Source: Hyphomicrobium zavarzinii ATCC 27496
Lineage (GTDB): Bacteria > Pseudomonadota > Alphaproteobacteria > Rhizobiales > Hyphomicrobiaceae
Length of the DNA stretch: 37,612 bases
Direction of reading: 5' to 3'
Assembly: GCF_000383415.1 (NCBI RefSeq)
Contig: NZ_KB911257.1
Span: forward strand, 1-37,612
The notes beneath the pieces are model-generated. The model had not been told where the DNA came from, searched no databases, and saw only the letters and a list, made by a program, of their open reading frames with translations. Positions 12,378 through 29,483 of this stretch are shown piece by piece (position 1 is the stretch's first letter; each line of letters starts with the position of its first letter). The position numbers and the translations under genes are program-made.

Positions 12378-12965
12378 TCAGTTCCTGTGCTCGTCCGTTT
12401 CCACCAACACGAGCGTGCTCCCATCGACGACACGGTACTTTTCGCCCGTTCTTGGGCAAATCAGTGTCTCGTCGAGAATTTCGCCGGCTCGCGACACCCA
12501 GCCGATGCGACGAGCCGGCACCCCCGCCATGAGCGCGAAGGCCGGAACGGGTTTCGTCACCACCGCGCCGGCCGCAATCAAACAATAGCGGCCCAGCTCA
12601 TTGCCGCACACGATCGTTGCATTGGCCCCGATCGTCGCACCGCGGCGAACGCGTGTGGGGCGGAACTCATCCTTGCGCTCGACCTCGGCACGCGGGTTCA
12701 AAACGTTGGTGAAAACGCAGGACGGCCCGCAGAACACGCCATCCTCCAGCTCGACGCCCTTGTACAAGGCGACGTTATTCTGGATCTTGCAATTGTCCCC
12801 CACCGGTACATCCGGGCCGATCATGACATTCTGGCCGATCGAGCAGTTCGCGCCGATGCGGCTGCCGGGCAGGATGTGCGCGAAATGCCATATCTTCGTC
12901 CCAGCGCCCACTTCGACGCCGTCATCGACATAGGCACTTTCGTGCACAAAGGGCGGCTTAGTCAT
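12378..12965 (-). CDS. wbpD: WbpD-type UDP-3-amino-GlcNAcA N-acetyltransferase
   Basis: Left-handed beta-helix enzyme, predicted to acetylate the 3-amino group of UDP-GlcNAc3NA to give UDP-GlcNAc3NAcA. The 195-residue protein begins MTKPPFVHESAYVDDGVEVG, then GTKIWHFAHILPGSRIGANC and QNNVALYKGVELEDGVFCGP, all typical of WbpD/WlbB. PARRIGWVSRAGEIL closes the coenzyme A site. The C-terminus adds a short CPRTGEKYRVVDG segment of the kind seen in WlbB-like proteins. Its stop is followed at once by the acyltransferase start. Its partners WbpA, WbpB and WbpE lie about 13 kb away at 25.9-29.5 kb on the other strand, so the pathway is split within the locus. Confidence 0.88.
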   Translation of the reverse strand: MTKPPFVHESAYVDDGVEVGAGTKIWHFAHILPGSRIGANCSIGQNVMIGPDVPVGDNCKIQNNVALYKGVELEDGVFCGPSCVFTNVLNPRAEVERKDEFRPTRVRRGATIGANATIVCGNELGRYCLIAAGAVVTKPVPAFALMAGVPARRIGWVSRAGEILDETLICPRTGEKYRVVDGSTLVLVETDEHRN

Positions 12966-13095
12966 GGCGTCGGCGCTCCTGCTGCACGGCTGGCCGGCGC
13001 AGGTTCTTTAGACGGCGGGCAATCGCCTATCAACACAGCCGTCCATTTCATCCTGCCCACGCACTCCGATCCCAATACCATAGATGTCTCGCCTG

Positions 13096-14208
13096 TCAGC
13101 CAGCGGATGAAAGGGCCGCATAGAGCGCAAGGAGCTTTTTCTCCTCGACGTTCCAATTGTAGCGTTCTTGCACGGCGCGGCGGCCGTTCTCCCCCATGCG
13201 CCTTGCAAGATCCGGTTTTTCCACAAGTTGATCGATTGCATCGGCGATCGCCTGCGGGTCGAGCGGATCGACACACACACCACAGTCGTTGCCCCGCACA
13301 ACTTCGCGCCACGGAGGAAAGTCTGACGCGATGACCGGCAGGCCGGCCGACATGTATTCGAACATTTTGACTGGAAGGGAATCTAGATACGCGCGCGTTG
13401 GATGAAGCGTCACGATGCCCGCCATCGAACGACCCAGGACAGCTTTGACTTCCGAGCGAGAGAGGAAGCCCAGCTCATTGACCTTCTGCCAAGCTGGCAA
13501 TTTTTCGAGCTCAGCCTTCGTCGCACTCGCCTCGAACTTCCCTCCCAGATTGAGCCGCGCACCGGATCTGGATAGCCCCATCGCAGCCACCACCTCCTTA
13601 ATGCCGCGGATCGCCGAGATGCCACCGATGTAGCAGACTTCTCTTTGTTTTCCGGCCCATGGGCTTTCTCCCTGGAGTTCTCCGAGAATGGGAAAATTAT
13701 TGACGTCTATCGTCTCAATTCCCTTCGCTACGAACTTGTCGCGGATCACCGGAGTAGCAGCGATAACGGAATCCAGCCGGCGGCACGCAAGGCTTTCGAA
13801 CGCTGACATCGACCCCGAGATCGAACGCCGAAGGAGAGGATGAAGATAGGGCTTCGAGAGAATTTGAACCGGCACGTCCTCATGAGAGTCGAAGATGACG
13901 CGCTTGCCTTTGCGCTTCAGCGCCAGCCCCGCTGGAAGCAGCTCCGGATCGTGAAACTGGTAGATATCCGCATCGATCTTGAGAGCTTGCTTCAGAACCC
14001 GCCGGGTCGCGCCAAGCATTCGATCGACGCGGTCTTTGGGCTTGCCAACATCATAGATAGAGACGCCCTCACGCTCCGCATCCCCTTCCCCGTCGGCCAC
14101 GACAAGCGAAACCCTGTAGCCGGCCGCAGCAAGGCTTCTGCATTGCTTCACAAAAATTCGGGTATCAAACCGAGGGTGAGCAGATGTGAGATGGGCAACA
14201 CTAACCAC
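13096..14208 (-). CDS. GT4-family glycosyltransferase
   Basis: Second GT-B glycosyltransferase of the locus. A GTG start at 14208 is chosen because GGAGGT lies seven bases upstream and the product then starts with VSVAHLTSAHPRFDTRIF, the normal first strand; a frame to 14253 adds only a Gly-rich stretch. At 370 residues it has IYQFHDPELLPAGLALKRKG and IFDSHEDVP in the N-terminal domain. In the donor domain it has VCYIGGISAIRGIKEVVAAM and LPVKMFEYMSAGLPVIASDF. Donor and acceptor are unknown. It is divergent from the first polymerase gene across 179 bases, which must hold both promoters. Confidence 0.9.
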   Translation of the reverse strand: MVSVAHLTSAHPRFDTRIFVKQCRSLAAAGYRVSLVVADGEGDAEREGVSIYDVGKPKDRVDRMLGATRRVLKQALKIDADIYQFHDPELLPAGLALKRKGKRVIFDSHEDVPVQILSKPYLHPLLRRSISGSMSAFESLACRRLDSVIAATPVIRDKFVAKGIETIDVNNFPILGELQGESPWAGKQREVCYIGGISAIRGIKEVVAAMGLSRSGARLNLGGKFEASATKAELEKLPAWQKVNELGFLSRSEVKAVLGRSMAGIVTLHPTRAYLDSLPVKMFEYMSAGLPVIASDFPPWREVVRGNDCGVCVDPLDPQAIADAIDQLVEKPDLARRMGENGRRAVQERYNWNVEEKKLLALYAALSSAG

Positions 14209-14387
14209 TTGCGATACCTCCGATCTGCGTCCACCTCCCCCTCCCGTGGCCATGTCGTCTTACGAGGACCGCCCCCGGCAAGTCGATACATTTTTTCTGC
14301 GCGCACTCTATTCACAAGGTTCGCACAAGCCCACCGACACTAGGCTTAAAGCTCCTGCCTGAAACTTCTGCGTCGTCGGAGACTCAA

Positions 14388-15815
14388 ATGAGAACTACCT
14401 CGTTCACCGGGCGACATGATAGTTACTGGCCCAGCTTTCTACTCGGCGCCTTTTGTTCATTTGGCATCTTCATCGGCCTCTTCGGAAGAGTTTTCGATTT
14501 TTCTAGCGGGTTGCTGGGGGTCGCGACTGTCCCCGCGAGTGCTATCATTTTATTTATTGCTGGTCGCGGAAGCGTCACACGCTGGGCAACGTGGACACCA
14601 TTGATCGCAGCGATTGCGATTAGCTTGCTGGCAGCGGCACAAGCCTCAGATTCGCAATGGCAATTTGCTTTGTCTCTGAGTGAGTGGGCACTGCGCGATG
14701 CAAGCTATTATGATTCTAAGCTGTTGATGCTTGGGGTGACCATTGTTCCTCAATTGGCCCTCACCGCGATTGCTATGCTTGCAGCTGACAAAGATGCAAT
14801 GATTGATGGTGTGTTACTTGCGCTTGCAGGCATTGCAGCCATTGCCGCATCTCGAGTGTTAGTTGATTATGGCTCGACCCTATTGCGCACTGAGTTTTTG
14901 GTGGCGCGGGAGTTCTACAGAGAAACAGCGCGTGGCTATTCTCTCGTCAGCTACGGCACTCTGATGGCTCTGGGCTCTATCGCCGCCCTGCGATTCCGGC
15001 TTGGGTGGGCGCTTTCATCTGTCCTCTTGTTCATGACTGCACTACTTAGTCGCCGCACAGAAACAATAGCGCTAGTCGGCGTAATTGTTACATTTGCCGC
15101 AATTAGCGGTTACAAATCTAGAGGCTCCGCCCGGTTTATTGGAGTGCTCGCGCTTTCTGCTTTTCTTTTTATAGCGCTTCATAACGGCCACAACCTTCAC
15201 TATTTTGGAAGTTTAACTTATAGCTTTCAAGAGCGCATAGGTATACTCAGGTCGAGCAATAAGGAAAGCACACCGGCAAACATATCCTCTCCGAAACAGA
15301 TGAAATTATCCGCAGCGGCACCGGCCGAAGCGGCATCGGCAGATAAATCGCAAGACTTTTCTGCGTCCCCCAGCAAGAATTTATCGACTGACAGAGATGC
15401 TACAAGCAATCTGTTTAGCCCACTCTTGGGAAAAGGGCTTGGGTCATTCCAAAACCTAACCACCTCGAATTTGTCATATCCTCACAACATTCTAGTGGAA
15501 ACGTTTCTCGAACTTGGCCCGATTGCGAGTGTCTTCACGGCAGTAATTTATCTAACCCCGCTGCTTGCCTTTAGCGCACCCCTGTTCCGAGGATATATGG
15601 CGTTGAGGCCGATGCTACTGACGGGATCGATTTTTCTCGCGATGATTATCTCCTTGAAAGCAGCCGACATCACCGCCATAGGGCGATCCATGTTCATCTC
15701 CAGCTTGACCTTGGTTTGTCTTTTTTCGCACGAACGTTGCATTTTTAGAGTCCGAAATTCCCAGCACCGCGACGATGGTGATGAGTGCGCCGTGAGTTGT
15801 CAAAGTGGTAACTAG
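14388..15815 (+). CDS. Wzy/O-antigen-ligase-like membrane protein
   Basis: Polytopic inner-membrane protein of about ten or more helices (475 residues), predicted to polymerise or ligate lipid-linked repeat units in the periplasm. The large periplasmic loop ends in LLGKGLGSFQN and YPHNILVETFLELGPI, the O-antigen-ligase family core. Just before it lies an unusual insert of about 65 residues rich in Ser, Ala and Lys (about 285-350). CGGAGA precedes ATG 14388. Hydrophobicity stops near residue 450 (SSLTLVCLFSHERC), and the last 25 residues lie opposite the coding part of the convergent gene. Base composition is lower in GC than the flanking genes. Polymerase versus ligase cannot be decided from sequence. 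Confidence 0.8.
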   Translation: MRTTSFTGRHDSYWPSFLLGAFCSFGIFIGLFGRVFDFSSGLLGVATVPASAIILFIAGRGSVTRWATWTPLIAAIAISLLAAAQASDSQWQFALSLSEWALRDASYYDSKLLMLGVTIVPQLALTAIAMLAADKDAMIDGVLLALAGIAAIAASRVLVDYGSTLLRTEFLVAREFYRETARGYSLVSYGTLMALGSIAALRFRLGWALSSVLLFMTALLSRRTETIALVGVIVTFAAISGYKSRGSARFIGVLALSAFLFIALHNGHNLHYFGSLTYSFQERIGILRSSNKESTPANISSPKQMKLSAAAPAEAASADKSQDFSASPSKNLSTDRDATSNLFSPLLGKGLGSFQNLTTSNLSYPHNILVETFLELGPIASVFTAVIYLTPLLAFSAPLFRGYMALRPMLLTGSIFLAMIISLKAADITAIGRSMFISSLTLVCLFSHERCIFRVRNSQHRDDGDECAVSCQSGN

Positions 15816-17012
15816 ATCGGACGCAGTTGCAAACGTATAGATTGGCATCGACAATGCAGCAGTTGCGAACGTAATTCCGTTCCCCCCTTGAGCCATTCTA
15901 GCAACGATAAGAAATCCACCCAACGCAACTGAATGAGCTATCACCCCCAAAATACCGGCATTCGCCAAACCCATCCCTATAAATCCGCTATTGGCGGCCA
16001 TTTGCGCGTTGTTGAATGCTTCTCGGCCAATTAAGTTTGCCGGCAATAACTCGAAAGGTGACGCAATCAAACCAAGCGTAATTCGGCTATATGACCACCA
16101 ATAGTAACTTTCCGTTTCTAAAAAATATCTCTGATAATACCAATTCAAAACCGATGGAGCCATGAGAGCACGCTCCAGAAACACCGCCGAAAGCCAACGC
16201 GGCTCTCTATCCAAAACCTTCATCCCATGAAGGAAGAACATGCGATCAATCAACGACAACGCTACAATGATGAGCAAGAGACTGCACAAAGCGACCACGG
16301 GCCGACGGCGGCTACTGAGAAACCATACTCCGATTGAAAAAAAAGGATAAAAAGCAGGAGCCTTGTGAGCGGTCAAGGCGAACATCAAAATGCCAGCAAC
16401 GATTGTAATCACGACTTTCGACCAACTGTTCGCGTAAAGCGCTAGCACTGTTGCTAGCGGAATCAACGAGTGACTAACAATCGCTCTAGCGTACTCCATC
16501 CACGACGGAACATTGGCAGCAATTTCCCGCCGAAGCTCGTAGACGCGAAATAGATCAAAACTAATGTACTTCCCAGCAAAATAGATCTGCGCCGCCATAT
16601 ACGCCGCAATAAATATAATTATAACAAAAAATGCGTGGTTGCTTCGTACAAGCGGCTGGTACCAGCTAGAATTAGATAGCATACGGGATGTCGCAATAGC
16701 TATTAAAAGCGCTCCGACACATATCGCACCGTACGATAGGGGCAGCCCCGCCCAAGCCATCAACGCCAATGAAGGCACTATTAGCGTCGCGATGACGATG
16801 TGAACTAAAAGTCGGTCAGCTCGATCTGGCAGCCCCGCGATAGCGCTGATCGAGACAATCGCCAGTGCCGCAAAGCCAACCTTCCATAACTCAATCTCTG
16901 GCCGTATGTAGTAAATTCCGACAGGATAGGCTACGGTGAGAGTTGCTAGGAGGGCAACAAAGCAAACCGTGTGCGCGAGCGGGGGGATGATGCTGTTTGG
17001 ATTCATAGGCAT
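15615..17012 (-). CDS. Polytopic membrane protein, probable oligosaccharide polymerase
   Basis: About twelve hydrophobic segments over 465 residues suggest a Wzy-type polymerase, though family motifs are weaker than in the other three such proteins of the locus. ATG 17012 or 17006 are both possible starts. A periplasmic stretch rich in Tyr and Trp (NWYYQRYFLETESYYWWSYS) is typical of EpsG/Wzy-like loops, and NAQMAANSGFIGMGLANAGI precedes the last helices. The hydrophobic part ends about residue 420. The final 45 residues (Gly, Asp, Lys-rich) are antisense to real helices of the convergent gene, giving a 201-base overlap of two coding regions. Low GC content suggests acquisition by transfer. 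Confidence 0.78.
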   Translation of the reverse strand: MPMNPNSIIPPLAHTVCFVALLATLTVAYPVGIYYIRPEIELWKVGFAALAIVSISAIAGLPDRADRLLVHIVIATLIVPSLALMAWAGLPLSYGAICVGALLIAIATSRMLSNSSWYQPLVRSNHAFFVIIIFIAAYMAAQIYFAGKYISFDLFRVYELRREIAANVPSWMEYARAIVSHSLIPLATVLALYANSWSKVVITIVAGILMFALTAHKAPAFYPFFSIGVWFLSSRRRPVVALCSLLLIIVALSLIDRMFFLHGMKVLDREPRWLSAVFLERALMAPSVLNWYYQRYFLETESYYWWSYSRITLGLIASPFELLPANLIGREAFNNAQMAANSGFIGMGLANAGILGVIAHSVALGGFLIVARMAQGGNGITFATAALSMPIYTFATASDLVTTLTTHGALITIVAVLGISDSKNATFVRKKTNQGQAGDEHGSPYGGDVGCFQGDNHREKNRSRQ

Positions 17013-17032
17013 TTACATAGCTCGGCTTGGAA

Positions 17033-18352
17033 ATGGAACGAAAGGGAGGAACGGCCATACGCACTTCTTTTTATAACCTATTGCGAAGCGATGGGGCGAT
17101 AAATTTAGCCGGACTAATCTTCGCTTCACTGCCTCCGCTTCTAGTGATCCCCATTCTGTCGCGTCTGTTTAGCCCTTCCGTATTCGGCCTTTTCGGCACT
17201 GCCTTTGCCGCAGCGTCGATTGCTATGATATTCATGACTGGCCGATACGAAACCGCGATCGTAGTTCCCAAAGACGACCGGGTGGCCGCTAGCATCGCAT
17301 TATCCGGAGCACTCGTCGCGACAGCTTCCGCATTAGGGGGAATTATAACCGCGCTAATCGCAAACTATATTATAGGTGGTATCCAATTGTATCTTGCCTT
17401 TGCAACAATTGGCATGGCTTATCTTGGGGCTATTTCACAGATAGCCGTAAACAGCGCGGTCAGAGTTGGCAACTTCCGTGCCCTGGCGTTGGGCCGATCA
17501 ATTGGCGCAACGGCGCAAGCTGCCCTTAGCGTGGGCGCTGGCACACTCGAGCTCGGAGCATCGGGCTTACTCGCAGCCTTCTCTCTTAGTTATCTTCTAA
17601 CCGCTTCATTTCTGTTTGCTTCCCTGGCTCCCAGGTTTCGAGAAATGGTGACCAGTTTGACCACCCTGGACATAAAGGCGGCGGCCGTGACATATCGGAA
17701 ATATCCTCTTTTTAATGTTCCCTCTGAAATTGCCAACTCGCTCGCCAATCATCTTCCTGTACTGTTTTTTACTTCCGCCTTTGGGCCAGCGGCTGCAGGT
17801 TACCTAACAATGTTCAATAGGGTGTGGGCAGGCTCTGCGATCATCTCGAAGGGTGTCGGCGAAATATTTCGTTATCGTGCCGCGGCGGAGATGCATCGAA
17901 CGGGGTCATTTTCTTCGACATTCATCAAGACGGCCGCCCCGCTCTCGGTTGTGGCAACTCTCGGTGCCTTTGTTCTAGTGGTTTCGGGTCCGGGTATATT
18001 TGAGTTCTTACTTGGATCAGCGTGGCGACACGCAGGAGAGTATGCGCAAATTCTAGCTCCGTTCGTGGCGATTCAATTGGTCGCTTCGACTATGAGCTCC
18101 GCATTTTACGTCTCTGAGAGGCTAAGGCCGATGATGATGTGGCAGTTCGGCCTCCTCTTAGCCCAAATATTCTCGCTGTGGATAGGTACTGCATCCGGCG
18201 TTCCAAGAAACGCCCTTATGTTGCTTGCTGCCAGTGGGTTCATCATGTACGGCGCTTATCTACTGCTGTCATACTGTGTGGCTAGTGCGCCGGCCGAATC
18301 GGCTCGGGCTGTGCGAAGATCCCCCCCATCTGCGTCGTCGAAGGAAAACTAG
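17033..18352 (+). CDS. wzx: Wzx-type polysaccharide flippase
   Basis: Moves undecaprenyl-diphosphate-linked repeat units across the inner membrane. The 439-residue protein has about twelve membrane helices and the MATE/MVF-type start INLAGLIFASLPPLLVIPIL followed by SRLFSPSVFGLFGTAFAAAS. GRYETAIVVPKDDR is the characteristic polar loop after helix 2. ATG 17033 lacks a Shine-Dalgarno, and TTG 17027 is in frame. A strong GGGAGGA (17044-17050) points instead to an ATA codon at 17057, eight codons in. It is divergent from the polymerase gene with only 20 bases between the two start codons. Lower GC than the flanks. Confidence 0.88.
   Translation: MERKGGTAIRTSFYNLLRSDGAINLAGLIFASLPPLLVIPILSRLFSPSVFGLFGTAFAAASIAMIFMTGRYETAIVVPKDDRVAASIALSGALVATASALGGIITALIANYIIGGIQLYLAFATIGMAYLGAISQIAVNSAVRVGNFRALALGRSIGATAQAALSVGAGTLELGASGLLAAFSLSYLLTASFLFASLAPRFREMVTSLTTLDIKAAAVTYRKYPLFNVPSEIANSLANHLPVLFFTSAFGPAAAGYLTMFNRVWAGSAIISKGVGEIFRYRAAAEMHRTGSFSSTFIKTAAPLSVVATLGAFVLVVSGPGIFEFLLGSAWRHAGEYAQILAPFVAIQLVASTMSSAFYVSERLRPMMMWQFGLLLAQIFSLWIGTASGVPRNALMLLAASGFIMYGAYLLLSYCVASAPAESARAVRRSPPSASSKEN
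17044..17059 (+). promoter_or_regulatory. Strong Shine-Dalgarno placed before an ATA codon in wzx
   Basis: GGGAGGA is the best ribosome-binding site near the start of wzx. Seven bases after GGAGG comes ATA, in frame, and the protein from there (IRTSFYNLLRSDGAINLAG) is a reasonable flippase N-terminus. ATA is a very rare start, so this is either an unusual initiation site, a point mutation from ATG, or a coincidence with real initiation at ATG 17033. Confidence 0.35.
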
Positions 18353-18559
18353 AATCGTCAAATAGACGCCGATGTTGGAGACCGCCTCGCAAATGAGGTG
18401 ATCTCTTGCGCGACTCATTGGTGCGGACCTGTAGATATCTAGCCTCTCAGTTGGCACCAGAGATAGCTGCAGCCAGTTACACCCAAGTCGCAAAATATCT
18501 ATTTGACTTGGTTGATTTTACCGTCGATGTGCAGGCGGGAGAGGTATCGGAAACCGCGC

Positions 18560-19171
18560 ATGATTGCAATTGTCGACCATGGCTATGCGAACATACGGTC
18601 GGTCGACCGAATGCTCCGGCGCCTCAACCAGATTCCCGTCGTTGCCGAGCGCCCTTCCGACCTCAAGCGCGCAAGCAAAATCATCCTGCCCGGCATCGGC
18701 GCTTTCGACGGACCAATGCGCCGCCTGCGCGAGCTCGGCTTCATCGACGCGCTCCATGAACATGCGATCGTGCGCCAACGTCCGATCCTCGGGATCTGCG
18801 TGGGTATGCAGATCATGACGCGGCGTAGCGAGGAAGGCGAGGCTGCGGGTCTCGGCTGGATCGAGGGAGAATGCCGGCGCTTCAGGCCGCCGGCGGAAGC
18901 CAAGCTGCGCGTACCCCACATGGGCTGGAACAAAGTCGCAATCGCGCCCGATGCCAAGCTGTTCGCGGCCTTCGGCAAGGAAGCGAAGTACTATTTCGTT
19001 CACTCCTACTATGTGGCCCTCGACGACAAGTCCTTGAACGCCGCAACCTGCTCCTACGGGGCCGATTTCTGCGCATCATTCCAGAAGGGCAATATTTTTG
19101 GCGTGCAGTTCCATCCGGAAAAGAGCCACCGCTTCGGCCTCGGGCTCCTGAAGGCATTCGCGGAGCTCTGA
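18560..19171 (+). CDS. hisH: HisH-type glutamine amidotransferase of the acetamidino module
   Basis: Class I glutaminase that releases ammonia from glutamine. From ATG 18560 the 203-residue protein has the oxyanion strand LPGIGAFDGP, the nucleophile Cys80 in GICVGMQIM, and His185/Glu187 in QFHPEKSH, so the full triad is present. The context is not histidine biosynthesis: hisF lies three bases downstream and a WbpG-type amidotransferase overlaps hisF. In Pseudomonas aeruginosa the corresponding HisH2-HisF2 pair feeds ammonia to WbpG. A longer frame to 18503 adds unrelated residues. GC is clearly higher than in the flippase just upstream. Confidence 0.92.
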   Translation: MIAIVDHGYANIRSVDRMLRRLNQIPVVAERPSDLKRASKIILPGIGAFDGPMRRLRELGFIDALHEHAIVRQRPILGICVGMQIMTRRSEEGEAAGLGWIEGECRRFRPPAEAKLRVPHMGWNKVAIAPDAKLFAAFGKEAKYYFVHSYYVALDDKSLNAATCSYGADFCASFQKGNIFGVQFHPEKSHRFGLGLLKAFAEL

Positions 19172-19174
19172 CAC

Positions 19175-19951
19175 ATGCTGCTGACCCGCACCATTCCGGT
19201 CCTGCTGCTGCACGGGCACGGACTGAACAAGACCCGGCAATTCGACTACTGGAAGTACCTCGGAGATCCGGTCAACGCCGTCCGTATCTTCAACGAGAAG
19301 GAAGTCGACGAGCTGATCGTGCTCGACATCGATGCTTCACGTGAGGGCTTTGGTCCGCGCATCAAGGAGATTGTCGAGCTTGCCGGCGAATGCTTCATGC
19401 CGATGTGCTACGGCGGGGGCATCACGGACCTCGAGCAGATCAAGCGCTTGCTCAGCGAGGGCATCGAGAAGGTGTCGCTGAATACCGCCGTGCACACCAC
19501 GCCGAGCCTCGTGGAGAAGGCCGCTCGCGACTTCGGCTCGCAAAGCATCGTGGTTTCGATCGACGTGCGGCGCAACGCGGACGGACGCTATTCCGTCTTC
19601 TCCAATTGCGGCCGGAAAGACCGCGGCATCGATCCCGTCGCATTCGCCGTTCAGGCCAAGAACCTCGGCGCCGGCGAGATCATGCTGTACGACATCGACC
19701 GCGACGGAATGAAAAACGGATACAATCTCGAGCTGATCAAAGCCGTTTCCGATGCGGTCGACATTCCCGTCATCGCCTGCGGCGGCGCCGGGCGCCTCGA
19801 GCATCTCAGCGAAGCCATCTCGGCTGGCGCTCATGCCGTTGCGGCGGGCTCGCTGTTTGTCCTGATCGGCCGGCTCGACGCCGTGCTCATCTCCTATCCT
19901 CCGCAAGCCGAACTCGAAAAACTCTACGCTGGCTCGGGGGTTTTCGCATGA
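19175..19951 (+). CDS. hisF: HisF-like ammonia-channelling barrel of the acetamidino module
   Basis: TIM-barrel partner of HisH with 258 residues. Usual HisF uses two catalytic aspartates, Asp11 in the IPCLDV strand and Asp130. Here the first strand reads [17 protein letters not shown], so position 11 is Leu, while Asp130 in [12 protein letters not shown] remains. [20 protein letters not shown] and [17 protein letters not shown] are typical of HisF paralogues tied to sugar amidotransferases. Loss of Asp11 argues against imidazole-glycerol-phosphate synthesis and for a role only as ammonia conduit to WbpG. It is coupled to wbpG by a four-base overlap. Confidence 0.92.
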
Positions 19952-21281: not shown

Positions 21282-22469
21282 ATGTCAAACGAAGCGGGCA
21301 CGATCTACCGCGAACGCTGGCATCTCCCGATTATCTACGCTTTCAGCGTTGTCATGATACTCGGCTTGCATTCGATCTACTACCCGCTGCATGTCGTCTA
21401 TGCATCAGGTCTACCGAAACACATCACTGTCGTAGCAAATGCTGGGTTAGCAGCCATTCTGCTCGCAACAATCACTGCAAGCCAACCCCGACGGTTAGCA
21501 AATTCAGCCTTCACCCTTCTTCTTTGGCTGCCATTCTTCACCTATCTAATCATTCACTATCTTCTGCTTCCGTCACCCTATAGTGACGCAGCGAAACTCG
21601 AGAAAATTACCATCTCGTTTGGACTTGCAGCAGTTTTGGGCGGACTGCTTGCAGCCGACAACAAGTCGGCGATTCGCGCCGTTTCATTCGTGTCCGCCCC
21701 TTTCGTTCTGTTTGGAGCGATCGCGTTGGCTAGAGGCGATATTGCTCTCGGAACGGACACCTTTCAGAATATTTTCTCGAGCCTGGATAACGAGCGAGCA
21801 CCTTACCAGACGATAAATCTGTTTATCGGATTATTCGCGGTGTCAATTTCCGCTCTCTTTCTCGACCGCTCGCTCTTACGAATTATATTAGTCTCAGCCG
21901 TAATTTCCGGGTGCATTTTTATTCAGATCGTGGTCGGAGGACGCGGTGCGATCGTTGCCACCGTGATTGCATTGCTCCTTACGTTTCTGATCAGACTTGG
22001 CGCTTGGAAGTCCCTGCTGATCGCCACAGTTGGAGGCATTGCTGCCGCATTCGCCTTGATGGCTTTGGATATTGATCTCACTCGAGCTACGGCGATCTGG
22101 CGCTTCGAGGACGTCTTGATCTGGGATGCGACCGATCCCTCAATGCGCCTAAGCCTGTGGACGGAAGCAGTGCAAATGTGGCTCCGTCATCCTCTATGGG
22201 GCGCCGGAACCGACGCCTTCATCGCCTCGCGGGGCGACCAGATATATGTTCACAATTTCATTCTCGAGATTCTAGCTGAATATGGCTTGCTCGGATTGGT
22301 CCTCTTCCTAGCGCCCTTTATTATTTTGATCGCTCGCCGGGACAGGGCGAACGCAGCCAACAATCATCTCATTATTCTGTCGATATTTTTCGTCGTCTGC
22401 TTTGCATTTTCCGGCGAGATAAAAGACCTCGCTCCCCTCGTCTTCACGATGGCGCTGGTGAGAGCTTAA
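21282..22469 (+). CDS. O-antigen ligase/polymerase family protein (Wzy_C-type)
   Basis: Inner-membrane protein of 395 residues with about ten helices, predicted to act on lipid-linked polysaccharide in the periplasm. Family marks are VVGGRGAIVATVIALLLTF, then the loop MRLSLWTEAVQMWLRHPLWG with GAGTDAF, and VHNFILEILAEYGLLGLVLF, the conserved H-N-x-x-L-E region. AGAGGA lies upstream of ATG 21282. It converges with the exported-protein gene downstream, 49 bases apart, with no clear terminator. GC content is lower than in hisH-hisF-wbpG. It could be either the Wzy polymerase or the ligase of the system. Confidence 0.87.
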   Translation: MSNEAGTIYRERWHLPIIYAFSVVMILGLHSIYYPLHVVYASGLPKHITVVANAGLAAILLATITASQPRRLANSAFTLLLWLPFFTYLIIHYLLLPSPYSDAAKLEKITISFGLAAVLGGLLAADNKSAIRAVSFVSAPFVLFGAIALARGDIALGTDTFQNIFSSLDNERAPYQTINLFIGLFAVSISALFLDRSLLRIILVSAVISGCIFIQIVVGGRGAIVATVIALLLTFLIRLGAWKSLLIATVGGIAAAFALMALDIDLTRATAIWRFEDVLIWDATDPSMRLSLWTEAVQMWLRHPLWGAGTDAFIASRGDQIYVHNFILEILAEYGLLGLVLFLAPFIILIARRDRANAANNHLIILSIFFVVCFAFSGEIKDLAPLVFTMALVRA

Positions 22470-22518
22470 GCAGCTTGACGCTATAAAAGATTAAGATCCT
22501 TGAATGCGGACCACATCC

Positions 22519-24078
22519 TCACCATGCAGTGATTGGCGTTTCTGCGACCACTTTTCCATCCATAGAGATTGTGATGCTCTCCGAGACAGTGAACTTAAGT
22601 GAATGGGTTCCCGTGAGCACGTCTGAATACATCGTATGGTTTGGAAGCTCCGCGCAGTAGATCGTGCCGTAGTCGTCGGCCTGCGCCCGCGTCATGAAGT
22701 TGTGGAGATCAGGATTGTACACAGTGCCGCCCATGCTCCCTGTGGCGGCGCAGACGCGGCCGCTAAAGACCGCGAGCGTGGTAATTCTCTGCGCCCACGC
22801 GCTCTCGAACAAACCGTACTTGCGAGCGGCGAATTTGAAACCGCCCTGTTCCTTATCGAGGACAATTCTTCCCGCCTTGATATCCTCATCGAAATCACCT
22901 GCTTGAAGGCGACGGAAGAGATTTCCTGATTCATAGAGATACGGCAGCCTGTCCTTACGCTCCGGATGAGTGAACAAGCGATCACGCGACGTTCGGCCGG
23001 CAAGCGTATCGTGCTGGACAATCTCGCCCCACGGATAGAGCCCAGTGAACAGAATTCCATAGGATGACACTGCCGCCTGCGCCTCTCGGTAAAGCATCCC
23101 ATTGTCCGATCGCCAATCCGTAGGCAGGGTGGGGGTCATGTCCCCGTGATAAGTAAATTGCCCTCCCTCATCCAGACGCATGAAGTTACCCGAAGGGTAG
23201 AGGCCTACGAGCAGGCTTCCGTCTTGATAAGTATAGGCATAGTGCTCGTTGGCAACGCTCTCGCTATTTGAATAGCTAATCTCGGTGACTTCATTGCCTT
23301 TCAGAAGGTACAGGTTTGCATTCCCTCGATTGTTCGATCCCCCCAGAACGACACCACCTCCCCAGTTTATCCCTCCGTAGGCCTGCCCCACGCCTTCCTT
23401 CAAAAGGCTTGCCGAAAGGGGTTCGCAGGCATTCTGCACTGGGGTCAGAGGCGCAATAGATAGTCCGCTTCGGTCGACAAAATAGACATGACCGTTGTCG
23501 ATCCGCGCGTAGCTGGGGAGTGCGGGAAAGGCGCCAAAGTCATACTTTGCCGACGAAAGGACATAAGCCCGACACTCCTCGCGATAGGTAACAGTCGCGA
23601 GCTTTCCCTCAGCACCAAACCGCTGCCACTGAATTGGCGAGTTGGCCAACCTGGGAAACGCCTCGGCAAGAGGAATCCATCTGCCGTTGACGAAGGCCTG
23701 TCGAGATCGCTCTTCGATCAAAGTGCCCTTGAAATTCGCGATCTGCGCTTGACTCAAAATTGCACTGGGGGTGGGAATGCGCTCCCATTTCAGATCGATC
23801 GGCTTCGATGGGTCGCGACACCAGAACTCAAGCTGGTTCTCGTTAGTGGGGATGCGCGTCGCCACGGACGAAACAAACGAGGCGGAGCAAATGAGGTTGG
23901 CCACCTTCTTTGTAAAAAGTGGTGGCCGATAGACTTCGAAGCTCTCTGGAGCAGTGTAAGGGACCTCTTCGTAGAATATCGGCTGACTTCCTGCGCTACT
24001 CGTGCCAGCTAGCACCACTGAAAGAGCCAGCGCCCTGAGACCATATCCCTTTGTCCGAGTGATAATTTCCGACCTCAT
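22519..24078 (-). CDS. Exported protein of unknown family, propeller-like
   Basis: I do not recognise the family. ATG 24078 is chosen because the 519-residue product then starts with a good Sec signal peptide: MRSEIITRTKGYGLRALALS, a hydrophobic core, and likely cleavage after AGTSSA. A longer frame to 24246 adds unrelated residues. The mature part has six Cys and a series of short strand-like units with similar wording (GSLLVGLYPSGNFMRL, GILFTGLYPWGEIVQHD, NGHVYFVDRSGLSIAPL, PYLYESGNLFRRL), which suggests a beta-propeller. A C-terminal strand-rich end reads HSLKFTVSESITISMDGK. Lying among polysaccharide genes, it may bind, modify or anchor the polymer; this is inference only. Confidence 0.7.
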   Translation of the reverse strand: MRSEIITRTKGYGLRALALSVVLAGTSSAGSQPIFYEEVPYTAPESFEVYRPPLFTKKVANLICSASFVSSVATRIPTNENQLEFWCRDPSKPIDLKWERIPTPSAILSQAQIANFKGTLIEERSRQAFVNGRWIPLAEAFPRLANSPIQWQRFGAEGKLATVTYREECRAYVLSSAKYDFGAFPALPSYARIDNGHVYFVDRSGLSIAPLTPVQNACEPLSASLLKEGVGQAYGGINWGGGVVLGGSNNRGNANLYLLKGNEVTEISYSNSESVANEHYAYTYQDGSLLVGLYPSGNFMRLDEGGQFTYHGDMTPTLPTDWRSDNGMLYREAQAAVSSYGILFTGLYPWGEIVQHDTLAGRTSRDRLFTHPERKDRLPYLYESGNLFRRLQAGDFDEDIKAGRIVLDKEQGGFKFAARKYGLFESAWAQRITTLAVFSGRVCAATGSMGGTVYNPDLHNFMTRAQADDYGTIYCAELPNHTMYSDVLTGTHSLKFTVSESITISMDGKVVAETPITAW

Positions 24079-24557: not shown

Positions 24558-25889
24558 GTGACAGCATTGTTCACGTCGACTGGGATTTCCGGCAAGACCG
24601 ATCCCGTGCGACTGCTTGTTCTTTTGTGGGGCAAGCGTTTTATTATTATTGCCGTCGCTATACTGTTCAGCATCCTGGGCACTATTTTTATGCTCTCGCG
24701 ACCTTTGTCCGCCGAGATAAGGACTGTCGTTGAAGTTGGGTATACTGCTGGCGGTCTCGTTGAGACGATCGATGTTGTCCGCCAAAAGATCAACGACATT
24801 TACTCAGTGGCAGCTGAAGACGAAATTCGCGCTGCCTCTCCAGATAACTCGAACATCAGTCTGAACGTCCGCCCGCGGATAGCCAGAAACAGCAATATTA
24901 TTGTGCTCGAAAGCTCCGCGCCTCTTGGGCAGGTCGATCTGTATCGCAGCTATCACGCGAAAATATTCGAGTACATCGCCCGAGATCACAATCGTACCTT
25001 TGAACCTCTTCGCGCCGGGCTCGAGACTACGCGTGAGGAACAGCGGGCGGTGCTGAAGAAGCTAGAAGAGCGGGCAACCGTTGACCCGCTGAAGAGCCAG
25101 CTGTTGGCGCAATTAGAGGAGTTGCGCGGGCAGGAACGGGCCCTACGGGACGAGCGAATCTTCGGAGTCGCCGTAAAGACGCTGGAAGGCCAAGTCTCTG
25201 ATGCGGAGAAGGCCTTGAAGGACTTGCAGGATGAGGAACGTCTCCTCGCTAAGACGCGCGCTCAGACGGATGTTTCCGTGAAGAACTACGCGGATCAGAT
25301 CGAACGTCTGAAGCAGTTTTTGAATGATGCTCGCGCTCAGCGCTCGAAACTCGCTTCGAGCCCAAACGATTCCAATAATGCAATTGCAGCTTTGATCTTC
25401 GATGCCGAAAATCTACGAACGGAGATCGAACTGCAGAAGCTTGAACGGGCTCTGGTCGTGGACGCCCCCTTGGATCAGGAGAAAGCCGAAGCGGAATTGC
25501 TCAAGAACAGACGCCAGCAACCCATCCAGGAACAAGCGATTGCAAGATCAAAAGCTGAAATCCCCAAGCTTACGCTGGAACGAGAACAGAAGCTTGCTGT
25601 CGCGCGCGTTGCGATTGACAATATCCTAGCAAAGCTTGGAGAGACCGAGACCTCTCGCCTTCATGAAATCGCCGTCCAGAAGGCCAAACTTCAGGAAACT
25701 GATATTCGACTGGGCAACATTCTTGTTACGCGCGTCGTCGTGCCGCCTAGGCGGAATCAGGAAGGCGAGCACAGTCGCATGTTCTTCGCCGGTTTGGCGC
25801 TTCTTGCGGGCCTTGGGCTCGGGCTGCTCGCCGGTGTATTTGCAGTTTTCAAAGACGCGATGACCTCGCGTTCTGCTCAACGGGTTTGA
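24558..25889 (+). CDS. wzz: Wzz-like polysaccharide chain-length / co-polymerase protein
   Basis: Inner-membrane protein thought to set polymer length with Wzy. GTG 24558 follows AGGCGGA at good spacing. The 443-residue protein has an N-terminal helix at about 28-47 (FIIIAVAILFSILGTIFML), a long periplasmic part with a heptad-rich coiled coil (about 140-370), and a C-terminal helix (MFFAGLALLAGLGLGLLAGV). The standard Wzz Pro-rich motif before helix 2 is only loosely seen (RVVVPPRRNQEG), and no Tyr-kinase domain follows, so it is a kinase-free polysaccharide co-polymerase. It lies six bases before wbpA and likely leads that operon. Confidence 0.82.
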   Translation: MTALFTSTGISGKTDPVRLLVLLWGKRFIIIAVAILFSILGTIFMLSRPLSAEIRTVVEVGYTAGGLVETIDVVRQKINDIYSVAAEDEIRAASPDNSNISLNVRPRIARNSNIIVLESSAPLGQVDLYRSYHAKIFEYIARDHNRTFEPLRAGLETTREEQRAVLKKLEERATVDPLKSQLLAQLEELRGQERALRDERIFGVAVKTLEGQVSDAEKALKDLQDEERLLAKTRAQTDVSVKNYADQIERLKQFLNDARAQRSKLASSPNDSNNAIAALIFDAENLRTEIELQKLERALVVDAPLDQEKAEAELLKNRRQQPIQEQAIARSKAEIPKLTLEREQKLAVARVAIDNILAKLGETETSRLHEIAVQKAKLQETDIRLGNILVTRVVVPPRRNQEGEHSRMFFAGLALLAGLGLGLLAGVFAVFKDAMTSRSAQRV

Positions 25890-25895
25890 TCTTCG

Positions 25896-27197
25896 ATGAT
25901 GCTCAATAGTGATGTCGGCGACGTAGCGCTCATTGGTCTCGGCTATGTCGGCCTGCCCCTTGCGGTCGAGTTTGGAAAGAAGCGGAAGGTCCTCGGCTTC
26001 GACATCAATGTCGCCCGCGTGGAAGAACTGCGCAAAGGCATGGACAGGACACTCGAGGTTGACAGCGAGGAGCTGGCCAGCGCCCGGCATCTCACCTTCA
26101 CCAGCAACCCCGACGATCTCAAGTCGTGCAAGTTTTTCGTCGTCACGGTTCCCACTCCCATCGACGACGCGAACCGCCCCGATCTGAGCCCGCTGGTCAA
26201 GGCCTCGACGACCGTGGGCCGGGTCATGCCGAAGGGCGCGATCGTGATCTATGAGTCGACCGTCTATCCCGGCGCGACCGAAGAGGTCTGCGTTCCAGCC
26301 TTGGCGGCGGCTTCGGGGTATACGTTCAACCAGGACTTTTTCTGCGGCTACAGCCCCGAGCGCATCAACCCCGCGGACAAGCAGCACAAGCTGCCGACCA
26401 TCGTGAAGGTCACGAGCGGCTCCACGCCCGAGGTGGCAGAGGTCGTCGATGCGCTCTACAAATCCATCATCACGGCCGGCACGCACAAAGCGAGCAGCAT
26501 CAAGGTTGCCGAGGCCTCGAAAGTCATCGAGAACACGCAGCGCGATCTCAACATCGCGCTGATGAACGAGCTGTCCGTGGTTTTCGCGCGCGTCGGCATC
26601 GACACGGCGGAGGTGCTGCGCGCCGCCGGCACGAAGTGGAACTTCCTCAACTTTCGGCCGGGCCTCGTCGGCGGGCACTGCATCGGCGTCGATCCCTACT
26701 ACCTGACGCACAAGGCGGAACAGCTCGGCTATATCCCGCAAGTCGTGCTGGCCGGACGCCGGATCAACGACAACATGGGCCGCTACGTTGCCCGCAACAC
26801 CATCAAGCTCATGCTGAAGAACGGCATCGACGTGCCGCGCAGCCGGATCGGCGTCATGGGCATCACGTTCAAGGAAAACTGCCCCGACACGCGCAACTCA
26901 AAGGTTGTCGATCTCGCGCGCGAGCTCATGGAGCACGGAGCGGAGGTCATCGTCGAGGACCCGCTTGCCGATGCAGCCGAGGTGAAGCACGAGTATGGTC
27001 TCGAGCTCGGCAGCGTTTCGAGCGAGCGCCCCGTCGACGCCCTCGTCGTCGCGGTGGGCCACGACAGTTATCGCAGCATGACGCCGGAGCAGCTCAAAAG
27101 CCGGCTGCGGGGAGCAAATCCCGTGATCTCCGACGTCAAGAGCCTCTACGATCGCCATGCGCTCACCAAGCTCGGCGTTACGGTGTTCAGACTTTAA
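25896..27197 (+). CDS. wbpA: UDP-N-acetylglucosamine 6-dehydrogenase (WbpA/TviB-type)
   Basis: Oxidises UDP-GlcNAc at C6 to UDP-GlcNAcA with two NAD+, the first step towards UDP-GlcNAc3NAcA. The 433-residue protein has the NAD-binding ALIGLGYVGLPLAVEFG (about residues 11-27), VVTVPTPIDDANRPDLSPL, the ESTVYPGATEEVCVP block, and the catalytic Cys262 in GGHCIGVDPYYLTHKA. Its resemblance to TviB/WbpA-type enzymes, rather than UDP-glucose dehydrogenase, comes from GYSPERINPADKQHKL. Two adjacent ATG codons (25896, 25899) could start it. It sits between wzz and the wbpB-like gene in one direction. UDP-GalNAc as substrate (WbpO-type) cannot be excluded. Confidence 0.9.
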   Translation: MMLNSDVGDVALIGLGYVGLPLAVEFGKKRKVLGFDINVARVEELRKGMDRTLEVDSEELASARHLTFTSNPDDLKSCKFFVVTVPTPIDDANRPDLSPLVKASTTVGRVMPKGAIVIYESTVYPGATEEVCVPALAAASGYTFNQDFFCGYSPERINPADKQHKLPTIVKVTSGSTPEVAEVVDALYKSIITAGTHKASSIKVAEASKVIENTQRDLNIALMNELSVVFARVGIDTAEVLRAAGTKWNFLNFRPGLVGGHCIGVDPYYLTHKAEQLGYIPQVVLAGRRINDNMGRYVARNTIKLMLKNGIDVPRSRIGVMGITFKENCPDTRNSKVVDLARELMEHGAEVIVEDPLADAAEVKHEYGLELGSVSSERPVDALVVAVGHDSYRSMTPEQLKSRLRGANPVISDVKSLYDRHALTKLGVTVFRL

Positions 27198-27216
27198 TCC
27201 CGACAGGATGGCCACG

Positions 27217-28266
27217 ATGACGTCGATCAAGGATCGCAAGGTTCGCTTCGCTCTCGTCGGGTGCGGGCGCATCGCCAACAACCACATCGGGGCGATGAAA
27301 TCGCACGCGGATCGCTGCGAGCTCGTGGATGTCTGCGATGTCTCTCCCGAAGCGCTCAAGGCGGCGGCCGAGGCAACGGACGCCAAGCCGCATCAGCGCT
27401 TCACCGACATGCTCGCGAAGACCAACGCCGATTGCGTCGTGATCACCACGCCGAGCGGTCTCCATCCGCAGCAGGCCATCCAGGCGGCGCAGGCCGGCTT
27501 CAACGTGATGACCGAGAAGCCGATGGCCACGCGCTGGAACGACGGCCTGGCGATGGTGGAAGCGTGCGACAAGGCCGGCGTGAAGCTGTTCGTCGTCAAA
27601 CAGAACCGCCGCAACGCGACGCTGCAGCTTCTCAAGAAGGCCATCGAGGCCCGCCGGTTCGGGCGCATCTACTCCGTTGCGATCAACGTCTTCTGGTCGC
27701 GCCCGCAGGACTACTACGACAGCGCGAAGTGGCGCGGCACGTGGGAGTTCGACGGCGGCGCCTTCATGAACCAGGCAAGCCACTACATCGATCTTCTGGA
27801 TTGGCTGATCGGTCCGGTGGAGAGCGTGATGGCCTACACCGGCACCTTGGCGCGCGACATCCAGGTGGAAGATACGGGCGTGGCCGCGCTACGCTGGCGC
27901 AGCGGGGCCATGGGCACGCTCAACGTGACCATGCTGACCTATCCCAAGAATTATGAGGGCTCGATCACGATCCTCGGCGAGCAGGGCTCTGTGCGCGTGG
28001 GCGGCGTGGCCGTCAACGAGATCCAGCACTGGGAATTCGCCACGCGGACCCCCGAGGACGACGAGATCAAGCAAGCGAACTACGCCACGACCAGCGTCTA
28101 CGGCTTCGGCCATCCTCTCTACTACGACAACGTCATCAGCTCGCTCAAAGGCGATGCGGAGCCGGAGACGGACGGCCGAGAGGGGCTGAAATCGCTCGAG
28201 CTGCTGATCGCGCTCTACATGTCCGCACGCGACGGCAAGCGCGTGGCGTTGCCGTTGGAATATTAG
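27217..28266 (+). CDS. wbpB: WbpB-type UDP-GlcNAcA 3-dehydrogenase (Gfo/Idh/MocA)
   Basis: Predicted to oxidise C3 of UDP-GlcNAcA to the 3-keto sugar with bound NAD. From ATG 27217 (AGGA eight bases upstream) the 349-residue protein starts MTSIKDRKVRFALVGCGRIA; ATG 27208 is an alternative. It shows the Rossmann nucleotide site VGCGRIANNHIGAM, the family Lys in MTEKPMATRWNDG, and NQASHYIDLLDWLIGPVESV, which holds the conserved His. Placed 19 bases after wbpA and just before a WbpE-like aminotransferase, it matches the wbpA-wbpB-wbpE order of known 2,3-diamino-uronic acid pathways. Similar enzymes act on inositol or other sugars, so the assignment leans on context. Confidence 0.87.
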   Translation: MTSIKDRKVRFALVGCGRIANNHIGAMKSHADRCELVDVCDVSPEALKAAAEATDAKPHQRFTDMLAKTNADCVVITTPSGLHPQQAIQAAQAGFNVMTEKPMATRWNDGLAMVEACDKAGVKLFVVKQNRRNATLQLLKKAIEARRFGRIYSVAINVFWSRPQDYYDSAKWRGTWEFDGGAFMNQASHYIDLLDWLIGPVESVMAYTGTLARDIQVEDTGVAALRWRSGAMGTLNVTMLTYPKNYEGSITILGEQGSVRVGGVAVNEIQHWEFATRTPEDDEIKQANYATTSVYGFGHPLYYDNVISSLKGDAEPETDGREGLKSLELLIALYMSARDGKRVALPLEY

Positions 28267-28340
28267 TCCGAGGGGCTTGCGAGCTCGCGGCGCATTCAAT
28301 GATCGGGGCCGTCCGTGATCGGCCAAGTTTGGACAGACCC

Positions 28341-29483
28341 ATGCAGTTCATCGATCTCAAGATCCAACAGACCGCCATCAAGGCCGATCTCGACAAGCGC
28401 ATTGGCGCGGTTCTGTCTCACGGGCAGTACATCATGGGGCCGGAAGTCGCCGAGCTCGAAACGGCGCTTTCGGACTACGTGGGTACGCGACACTGCATCA
28501 GCGTCGCAAGCGGAACCGAAGCGCTTCTGATCGCCCTGATGGCGCTCAGCGTGGGACCGGGCGACGAGGTCATCACCACGCCGTTCACGTTCGTCGCGAC
28601 GGTGGAAGTCATCGTGCTGCTCGGCGCGACGCCCGTGTTCGTGGATGTGGAACCCGACACGGCGAATATCGACCCTTCCGCCATCAGCGGAAAAATTACG
28701 CCGCGCACCAAGGCCATCATCCCTGTGAGCCTTTACGGCCAAGTTGCCAACATGGATGAGATCAACGCCGTGGCGGCCGCCAATGGCAATGTTCCCGTCA
28801 TCGAGGATGGCGCCCAGAGCTTCGGCGCCTCGTACAAGGACCGCAAGAGCTGCGGGCTTTCGACGTTCGGCTCCACCAGCTTTTTCCCTTCGAAGCCTCT
28901 CGGCTGCTATGGCGACGGCGGAGCGCTGTTCACGAACGACGATGCGCTCGCGACGGCGGCACGCGAAATCCGAGTGCACGGGCAAAGCAAGCGCTACGTC
29001 CACACCCGCGTCGGCGTCGGCGGCCGCATGGACACGCTTCAATGCGCGATCGTGCTGGCGAAGCTGCCGCGCTTTGCGTGGGAGGTGAGTGAGCGGGCTC
29101 GCATCGGCGCTCGCTACGATGCTCTTCTTCGCGAGGCCATCGCGGGATTTGGCCCCGTTACCGCAAACGAGGTGGGCACGACTTTGTCCGCTCCGCGTTC
29201 GCTCACCGTGCGTGCCGATCGTAGCAGCGTTCACGCGCAATATACGATCCTGGTGCCGAACCGCACGGATGTCCAATCCAAGCTACAGTCGGCAGGCATT
29301 CCGACAGCGGTTCACTATCCTGTCCCGCTCAACGAGCAGCCCGCCTATCGCGACGTTTCAGCCGGAGATCCCACGCCTGTCAGCGCGTGGCTCGCCGCCC
29401 ATGTGATGAGCCTTCCGATGGGGCCAGATCTCTCCGAGGCGGATCAGAACCGCGTCGTCGCTGAGCTTCGCGCCTGCTTCTAA
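28341..29483 (+). CDS. wbpE: WbpE-type UDP-3-keto-GlcNAcA aminotransferase (DegT family)
   Basis: PLP enzyme that puts an amino group from glutamate on C3 of the UDP-3-keto uronic acid. ATG 28341 gives 380 residues starting MQFIDLKIQQTAIKADLDKR, the typical WbpE/WlbC start; an in-frame extension to 28299 is not supported. Landmarks are SVASGTEALLIALMAL, VIEDGAQSFGASYKDRKSCG with Asp156, and the Schiff-base Lys185 in FFPSKPLGCYGDGGA. VHYPVPLNEQPAY is a usual C-terminal signature. It completes the wbpA-B-E operon; the following step, WbpD, lies at 12.4-13.0 kb. It converges with an O-antigen ligase-like gene 28 bases away. Confidence 0.9.
   Translation: MQFIDLKIQQTAIKADLDKRIGAVLSHGQYIMGPEVAELETALSDYVGTRHCISVASGTEALLIALMALSVGPGDEVITTPFTFVATVEVIVLLGATPVFVDVEPDTANIDPSAISGKITPRTKAIIPVSLYGQVANMDEINAVAAANGNVPVIEDGAQSFGASYKDRKSCGLSTFGSTSFFPSKPLGCYGDGGALFTNDDALATAAREIRVHGQSKRYVHTRVGVGGRMDTLQCAIVLAKLPRFAWEVSERARIGARYDALLREAIAGFGPVTANEVGTTLSAPRSLTVRADRSSVHAQYTILVPNRTDVQSKLQSAGIPTAVHYPVPLNEQPAYRDVSAGDPTPVSAWLAAHVMSLPMGPDLSEADQNRVVAELRACF

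Follow-up and report, generated by a model that had tools for sequence, protein, structure and literature searches.

Gene content of the locus

We analysed a surface-polysaccharide locus of Hyphomicrobium zavarzinii ATCC 27496. The stretch of DNA examined (the window) spans positions 1 to 37,612 of contig NZ_KB911257.1 (C3), in a genome of 4.65 Mb and 15 contigs. From comparisons of genes and gene orders, the probable product of the locus is a surface polysaccharide, assembled by the Wzx/Wzy route, with an acetamidino-bearing 2,3-diamino-2,3-dideoxy-hexuronic acid in its repeat. A first-pass annotation had named seven genes for this chemistry, and all seven were present as open frames at the positions given there, with matches far beyond chance. 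Below, G-numbers denote genomes, L-numbers fetched stretches or loci, and C1 and C3 contigs of the window's genome; G006 (stretches L190 and L189), G003 and G005 belong to the window's own genus. The comparison set comprised 120 stretches fetched from part of the listed matches (118 around TIGR03573 matches and two around WbpB matches), plus 14 loci. The seven genes, acting on uridine diphosphate (UDP) sugars such as UDP-N-acetylglucosamine (UDP-GlcNAc), are listed with strand, supporting match (including entries of the Protein Data Bank, PDB) and identity to relatives.

12378..12965 (-): WbpD, UDP-GlcNAc3NA 3-N-acetyltransferase; PDB 3mqg; 87% to G006, 87% to G876
18560..19171 (+): HisH-type glutaminase; TIGR01855 222.6 bits, cut-off 105.4
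19175..19951 (+): HisF2 (AglZ family); NF038364 343.7 bits, cut-off 310
19948..21084 (+): WbpG/WbuX N-acetyl sugar amidotransferase; TIGR03573 297.7 bits, cut-off 203.2; PDB 8wex
25896..27197 (+): WbpA/TviB-type UDP-GlcNAc 6-dehydrogenase; NF011729 563 bits, cut-off 592; 85% to G006
27208..28266 (+): WbpB/WlbA-type UDP-GlcNAcA 3-dehydrogenase; PDB 3q2i/3q2k type; 85% to G006
28341..29483 (+), frame opening at 28299: WbpE 3-aminotransferase; PDB 3nu7; 80% to G006

The starts of HisH (18560), WbpG (19948, overlapping the HisF2 stop) and WbpB (27208) are refined ones.

Predicted enzymes for a diamino-uronic acid

WbpB, WbpE and WbpD were assigned by homology to proteins with solved structures. 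The best PDB match of WbpD was 3mqg, labelled 'Lipopolysaccharides biosynthesis acetyltransferase' (E 9e-67), which we take to be WlbB. WbpB matched 3q2i ('dehydrogenase', E 2e-186) and 3q2k ('oxidoreductase', E 1e-177), presumably the WlbA enzymes of Chromobacterium violaceum and Bordetella pertussis, and WbpE matched 3nu7, 'Aminotransferase WbpE' (E 4e-125). On the strength of the 3q2i/3q2k and 3nu7 matches, GnnA and GnnB, the lipid A diamino sugar enzymes, were set aside as identities for WbpB and WbpE. WbpA passed the general nucleotide-sugar dehydrogenase model (374 bits, cut-off 189.8); its best model was TviB (E 3e-169), where it stayed below the curated cut-off, and no PDB chain matched it at E 1e-60. 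At the limits used, WbpB and WbpD had one match each in the window's genome, both in the window. The first-pass annotation had held that its reading would fail if WbpB, WbpE and WbpD grouped with unrelated pathways. Judged from best matches rather than trees, they did not: the best matches among the searched genomes lay in wbp sets, in G006, G077 and G003 for WbpB and WbpE, and in G876, G006 and G077 for WbpD.

The 3-dehydrogenases of C. violaceum and B. pertussis follow a sequential mechanism, and that of Pseudomonas aeruginosa a ping-pong mechanism using alpha-ketoglutarate (PMC10622841, excerpt). Since the window's WbpB resembles 3q2i and 3q2k, its mechanism is predicted to be sequential as well.

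Gluco or manno configuration

UDP-GlcNAc3NAcA (UDP-2,3-diacetamido-2,3-dideoxy-glucuronic acid) had been proposed as the product of these enzymes. The enzymes for it are supported, but the account is incomplete, as the genome also has, outside the window, a gene for a WbpI-like 2-epimerase. Two members of PF02350, the WbpI family, were found, both on contig C1. The WbpI-like one (C1:792944-794005, 353 amino acids, aa) had 8sxv as its best PDB match (E 2e-125), and its best-matching chains are labelled UDP-2,3-diacetamido-2,3-dideoxy-glucuronic acid-2-epimerase. Such an enzyme is described for Thermus thermophilus (PMC10622841, excerpt), and we infer that 8sxv is that protein. WbpI is linked to wbp-type genes in G006, G077 and Pseudaminobacter. 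Because a WbpI-like enzyme is encoded in the genome and WbpI is linked in these sister loci, the manno form is expected. UDP-ManNAc3NAcA, the 2-epimer, would then be made from GlcNAc3NAcA as its precursor, and ManNAc3NAmA, the acetamidino form of the Pseudomonas O5 type, is the more likely end product.

Alternatively, the product may remain in the gluco configuration (GlcNAc3NAmA), with the unlinked epimerase acting for a different glycan. We regard this as a real possibility, though not the expected outcome, and it is compatible with amidination of the diamino-uronic acid. Several observations weigh against the manno form. No PF02350 protein occurs in the window, while G006, G077 and Pseudaminobacter have a linked WbpI. 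With the linked WbpIs of these three sister loci, the unlinked C1 protein shares only 53-55% identity (55% for Pseudaminobacter and G077, 53% for G006). Its next PDB match is 4neq, 'UDP-N-acetylglucosamine 2-epimerase' (E 1e-84). The divergence of the C1 copy and the 4neq match therefore leave the substrate of this copy uncertain and keep the gluco form in consideration. However, the C1 protein scores 421.8 bits with 8sxv against 287.9 with 4neq and 124.6 with 1f6d (E 5e-35), the chains beyond 4neq reaching E 6e-43 or weaker, and the genome's sole WbpB and WbpD matches lie in the window.

The second PF02350 epimerase (C1:839804-840841, L173; 32-33% identical to the linked WbpIs) appears to belong to a further polysaccharide locus, where a Bac_transf enzyme (PF02397) and, read by eye, export-like and chain-length-like proteins also occur.

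Amidination genes and their likely substrate

A CxxC...CxxC tetracysteine motif and an SGGVDS PP-loop were read in WbpG, motifs given for its family in PMC10607449 (excerpt). A single PDB chain, 8wex, matched WbpG, and weakly (E 5e-6). HisF2 exceeded the cut-off of the AglZ/HisF2 model and stayed below those of WbuZ (285.0 bits, cut-off 299.7) and HisF (207.3, cut-off 294.6). In an alignment with HisF of Escherichia coli K-12, the Asp of CLDV is replaced by Leu (position 11) and Asp130 is kept; we take these to be the two catalytic aspartates of HisF. HisH retains the GIC and QFHPE motifs in its alignment, and a second HisH is encoded on the same contig about 120 kb away (C3:138964-139596). 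HisH and HisF2 thus appear to be dedicated paralogues apart from histidine biosynthesis, HisF2 being judged by its model scores and the Asp-to-Leu change.

To place the amidotransferase, we built a FastTree phylogeny of WbpG from the 126 of 141 proteins kept after requiring the PP-loop. The window's clade (support 0.82) holds the window, L002, L003, L004, L118, L137 and L138. The window pairs with L002 (0.99), L003 and L004 join next (1.0), and the node without L138 has a support of only 0.31. The nearest named relative of the window's WbpG, in a search that reaches close relatives only and may miss the window's own kin, is from Pseudaminobacter arsenicus (80%). We then searched 44 genomes for WbpD: the seven of the clade, 15 others of group I (WbpG above 150 bits to the window's WbpG in the fetched stretch; the genomes of L005-L012 left out) and 22 of the many of group II, which was assigned from the fetched stretches, so that a group-I copy may lie elsewhere in those genomes. 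A WbpD-type gene of at least 200 bits was found in 6/7 clade genomes, 4/15 other group-I genomes and 7/22 group-II genomes (6/7 against 11/37; Fisher one-sided p 0.009, with the cut chosen after the scores were seen and kinship among these related genomes ignored by the test). Other candidate sugars were patchier in the clade. NeuB was found in three of the seven genomes (G200, G209, G410), as was a PglD-type protein over the cut-off (G000, G200, G410). A PF02719 match above 300 bits in a short frame (340-370 aa), the form seen in FnlA-bearing genomes, was listed in none of the seven, and a gene closest to the FnlA model, below its curated cut-off, lay in or near the module in L047, L049, L060, L062 and L162, all outside the clade. 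Given that WbpD is frequent in the clade and the NeuB, PglD and FnlA types are patchier, the diamino-uronic acid appears to be the best common denominator. The comparative data therefore favour, without proving, the earlier proposal of this sugar as the target of the amidotransferase.

Other observations weigh against this assignment. Co-occurrence is not function, and the background co-occurrence of WbpD is not small. At 160 bits the comparison becomes 6/7 against 13/37 (p 0.019), and 5/6 against 13/37 (p 0.038) with the window left out. In the genome search, no WbpD-type gene turned up in one clade member, G200. In Pseudaminobacter the Wbp genes lie about 40 kb from WbpG on the same contig, and their dehydrogenase (L178) is of a different sequence type, with neither 3q2i nor 3q2k among its 30 PDB hits at E 1e-12 and a role inferred from its neighbours. 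WbpG and WbpB are on separate contigs in G077 and G003. Finally, the seven do not all show every pathway gene; for example, WbpE was absent from the fetched stretch of G877, and WbpI from those of G878, G209 and G200.

The idea that the three nearest WbpG relatives lack WbpB, which would have counted against the first-pass annotation, was dropped once the WbpI-dehydrogenase-WbpD set of L178 and the fusions of L179 and L180 were found. In these fusions a Gfo/Idh/MocA dehydrogenase and a WbpD-type acetyltransferase share one open reading frame (ORF; L179:9113-10690 and L180:8914-10494), possibly a bifunctional enzyme and another sequence type for the C3 dehydrogenase step. Unlike them, WbpD and WbpE in G003 and the dehydrogenase and WbpD in G702 are in different frames and not fused. 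In L060 and L061, two distinct HisH-HisF-WbpG modules, one per amidotransferase group, stand in one locus, which suggests two amidinated sugars in one glycan.

A second sugar pathway lies in the same window, on the side of WbpD.

4185..6185 (-): PglF/CapD-type UDP-GlcNAc 4,6-dehydratase, 666 aa; PF02719 380 bits
6546..7721 (-): PglE-type DegT aminotransferase; PF01041 326 bits
7735..8367 (-): PglD-type acetyltransferase, bacillosamine pathway; TIGR03570 219.5 bits, above cut-off 160.8
8364..8975 (-): PglC-type phosphoglycosyltransferase, likely priming enzyme; PF02397 218.5 bits; 76% to G006
8972..10234 (-): GT4a, family 4 glycosyltransferase; PF13579, PF13692; 72% to G006
10353..12377 (-): AT3-SGNH membrane O-acyltransferase; PF01757, PF19040

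With PglF, PglE, PglD and PglC at hand, the amidotransferase might act on a bacillosamine-type sugar and leave the diamino-uronic acid un-amidinated, and the substrates of the WbpG family do vary, from ManNAc3NAmA in P. aeruginosa O5 to L-FucNAm (an amidino derivative of L-fucosamine) in E. coli O145 (PMC10607449, excerpt). We consider this unlikely, as no PglD-type protein over the curated cut-off was found in four of the remaining six clade members (G876, G877, G878 and G209), all of which nevertheless have a WbpD-type gene; each of the 18 genomes searched gave matches to the PglD model, most of them below threshold, so absence by this cut-off is not proof.

Origin of the three-block arrangement

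The wbp-type genes had been described as split into three blocks on both strands. The arrangement is as described, but it is best explained by an insertion of about 13 kb or an allele replacement, rather than by anything peculiar to the pathway. The genes between WbpD and WbpA, apart from HisH-HisF2-WbpG, are listed with the membrane protein that follows WbpE.

13096..14253 (-): GT4b, family 4 glycosyltransferase; homologue in L178, 540 bits
14388..15815 (+): polymerase/ligase-like membrane protein; Wzy_C 16.2 bits, sub-threshold
15615..17012 (-): membrane protein without family match; 168 bits to L002:11222-12523
17027..18352 (+): Wzx-type flippase, without its own Pfam match, called via homologues
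21282..22469 (+): Wzy_C polymerase/ligase; PF04932 57.8 bits, above cut-off 31.7
22519..24078 (-): secreted-like protein of 519 residues inside the insert, without family match
24558..25889 (+): Wzz-like chain-length protein with two terminal membrane spans; Wzz 18.0 bits, cut-off 25.5, sub-threshold
29511..30830 (-): Wzy_C-family protein, possibly O-antigen ligase; PF04932 69.3 bits

In G006, PglF-PglE-PglD-PglC-GT4a-WbpD and WbpA-WbpB-WbpE stand in the same order as in the window, on the KpsF side of the contig, with WbpD and WbpABE divergently oriented. Besides the identities listed above, those of PglF, PglE and PglD are 58%, 60% and 30%. In DNA alignments, the wbpD and wbpA matches stand 577 bp apart in G006 (L190 7650-8226), against 12,959 bp for the window (12967-25925). 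The window's extra segment of about 13 kb, partly of lower guanine-plus-cytosine (GC) content, carries the genes for the flippase, for amidination and for polymerase-like proteins. In the region from 13.1 to 25.9 kb, the GC content is 0.51-0.58 for the GT4b, polymerase, flippase, 22519-24078 and Wzz segments and 0.61 for HisH-HisF2-WbpG; it is 0.63 for WbpABE and for 6.5-13.0 kb. HisH, HisF2 and WbpG had no match in the G006 stretch, and TIGR03573 none in that genome. After WbpE, G006 carries WbpI and then, read by eye in translated ORFs, AsnB-like and ATP-binding cassette (ABC) exporter genes.

The KpsF stretches of six other genus members (L176, L185-L188, L191-L194; that of G005 spans only 9 kb) had no listed match to WbpA, WbpB, WbpE, WbpD or WbpG, and two of the six (G003 and G005) carry TIGR03573 genes elsewhere. 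PglF homologues lie near KpsF in several genus members (L176, L185, L187, L193), and a homologue of the 29511..30830 protein (43% identical) lies between PglF and KpsF in G003. The site near KpsF thus appears to be variable, as is usual for surface-polysaccharide loci. Insertion into a G006-like ancestor, or replacement, would best explain the three blocks; a deletion in G006, instead of an insertion in the window's lineage, may also have produced the difference.

Wzx, HisH, HisF2, WbpG and the 15615-type membrane protein are common to the window and Pseudaminobacter L002; the membrane protein adjoins WbpG in Pseudaminobacter and was found only in these two among the stretches searched. In L002 the genes surrounding this group, read by eye, look like housekeeping genes, and the Wbp set, about 40 kb away, has a GT4b homologue adjoining WbpI-dehydrogenase-WbpD. 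This shared group supports, without proving, a movable amidination-export unit. We tentatively propose that amidination is an exchangeable export cassette, in which the Wzx family, HisH-HisF2-WbpG and matching polymerases may move together. Its gain would turn an un-amidinated diamino-uronic glycan, as in G006 with its ABC-type exporter, into an amidinated, Wzx/Wzy-made one. Among nine members of the window's Wzx family in the fetched stretches, five adjoin HisH and four are in or near Wbp gene sets, a count biased by three of the four search seeds having been chosen beside HisH and by nearly all stretches having been fetched for WbpG or Wbp genes.

Polymerase-like, flippase-type and other proteins

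The description of the blocks as interleaved with polymerases holds in substance. The four polymerase- or ligase-like membrane proteins (14388-15815, 15615-17012, 21282-22469 and 29511-30830) have 9-10 predicted spans, nine in each of the first two; two exceed the Wzy_C cut-off, one is sub-threshold and one lacks a family match. Because O-antigen ligases also fall under Wzy_C, either of the two Wzy_C proteins may be the polymerase. These two support a Wzy polymerase in the locus; the Wzx is recognised only through homologues (L002:7292-8545 and L004:7223-8512, 27-32% identical, matching PF13440) and the Wzz is sub-threshold; both calls are weak on their own. The secreted-like 22519-24078 protein had no match in Pfam or PHROGs, and its single-sequence structure prediction was uninformative (mean predicted local distance difference test score 35.4).

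That the locus is a decayed composite making no such glycan is very improbable: the convergent ORFs 14388-15815 (+) and 15615-17012 (-) overlap by about 200 bp at their 3' ends, the polymerase-like genes are in surplus and WbpI is missing, but the enzyme genes are uninterrupted frames with the checked motifs intact, and the 15615 ORF aligns to its Pseudaminobacter homologue over residues 65-417 of 465, so that its overlapping tail falls outside the alignment and may be a short extension.

Comparison with known systems

The gene combination, chemistry and gene families are already known from other microbes. The likeness to P. aeruginosa B-band O-antigen chemistry noted in the first-pass annotation was supported. 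The wbp locus of P. aeruginosa O5/PAO1 (WbpA-B-E-D-I, WbpG, HisH2 and HisF2; WbpG is described for O5 in PMC10607449, excerpt) uses the same enzyme families for these steps. Unlike it, the window's locus lacks WbpI, has a WbpB of the 3q2i/3q2k type and contains the PglF/E/D/C set. Cluster B of Sphingomonas sp. LM7, found via colony-morphology mutants and with its genes given in the mutant table, is likewise a Wzy-type locus with a nucleotide-sugar dehydrogenase, MviM dehydrogenase, aminotransferase, acetyltransferase and WbuX/HisF2/HisH; its gene order differs, and the composition analysis in the excerpt covers the other polysaccharide, promonan, of Cluster A (PMC11340318, excerpt). A plasmid of Agrobacterium sp. 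MA01 (NZ_CP045856.1:190486-207070) groups TviB-type, Gfo/Idh/MocA, acyltransferase, DegT, amidotransferase, HisH and AglZ/HisF2 genes; this locus differs in being plasmid-borne, in having an ABC transporter protein and AsnB, and in an amidotransferase only 39% identical. In Sphingomonas hankookensis, dehydrogenase and aminotransferase genes are on the same plasmid as an amidotransferase. The flagellin N-glycan of Methanococcus maripaludis contains ManNAc3NAmA and GlcNAc3NAcA, and, according to results cited as unpublished, the acetamidino group depends on MMP1081, a WbpG homologue; this is an archaeal protein glycan and not a bacterial polysaccharide (PMC2952790, excerpt). G006 shares PglF-E-D-C-GT4a, WbpD and WbpABE and differs by its linked WbpI, its ABC-type exporter read by eye and its lack of HisH/HisF2/WbpG matches in the stretch.

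Neighbouring genes

35576..37612 (-): SPINDLY/GT41-type tetratricopeptide repeat (TPR) glycosyltransferase; PF13844 + TPR

This gene has a further homologue on the next stretch. Just outside the window, an ORF of 5,975 residues (C3:44248-62175, -; L174, L177) consists of repeats rich in G/T/A/S/N/D/L; Arg and Pro are nearly absent, and Cys and Trp wholly so. Type I secretion genes, an ABC exporter and an HlyD-like gene, were read by eye near it (L177:5217-8365, +). Its product looks like a giant secreted adhesin or surface-layer (S-layer) protein, and the SPINDLY/GT41-type enzyme could glycosylate proteins such as this one.

Proposed pathway and its meaning

By homology, WbpA would oxidise UDP-GlcNAc at C6 and WbpB then at C3; WbpE would aminate C3 and WbpD acetylate that amine. 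The unlinked WbpI-like enzyme probably converts UDP-GlcNAc3NAcA to UDP-ManNAc3NAcA. HisH would free ammonia from glutamine, partnered by HisF2, which would have no cyclase activity. WbpG, using ATP, would convert an N-acetyl group to an acetamidino group, the diamino-uronic sugar being its most likely substrate. Priming of the repeat, with di-N-acetylbacillosamine phosphate, is probably the work of PglF/E/D and PglC, and its extension would be that of the two family 4 glycosyltransferases.

If this reading is true, one insert between species of the same genus should decide whether the surface glycan bears a positively chargeable amidine. The two arrangements would then offer a natural comparison for the effects of amidination on surface charge, phage adsorption and export specificity, and a flippase and polymerase would be shown to travel with amidination genes.

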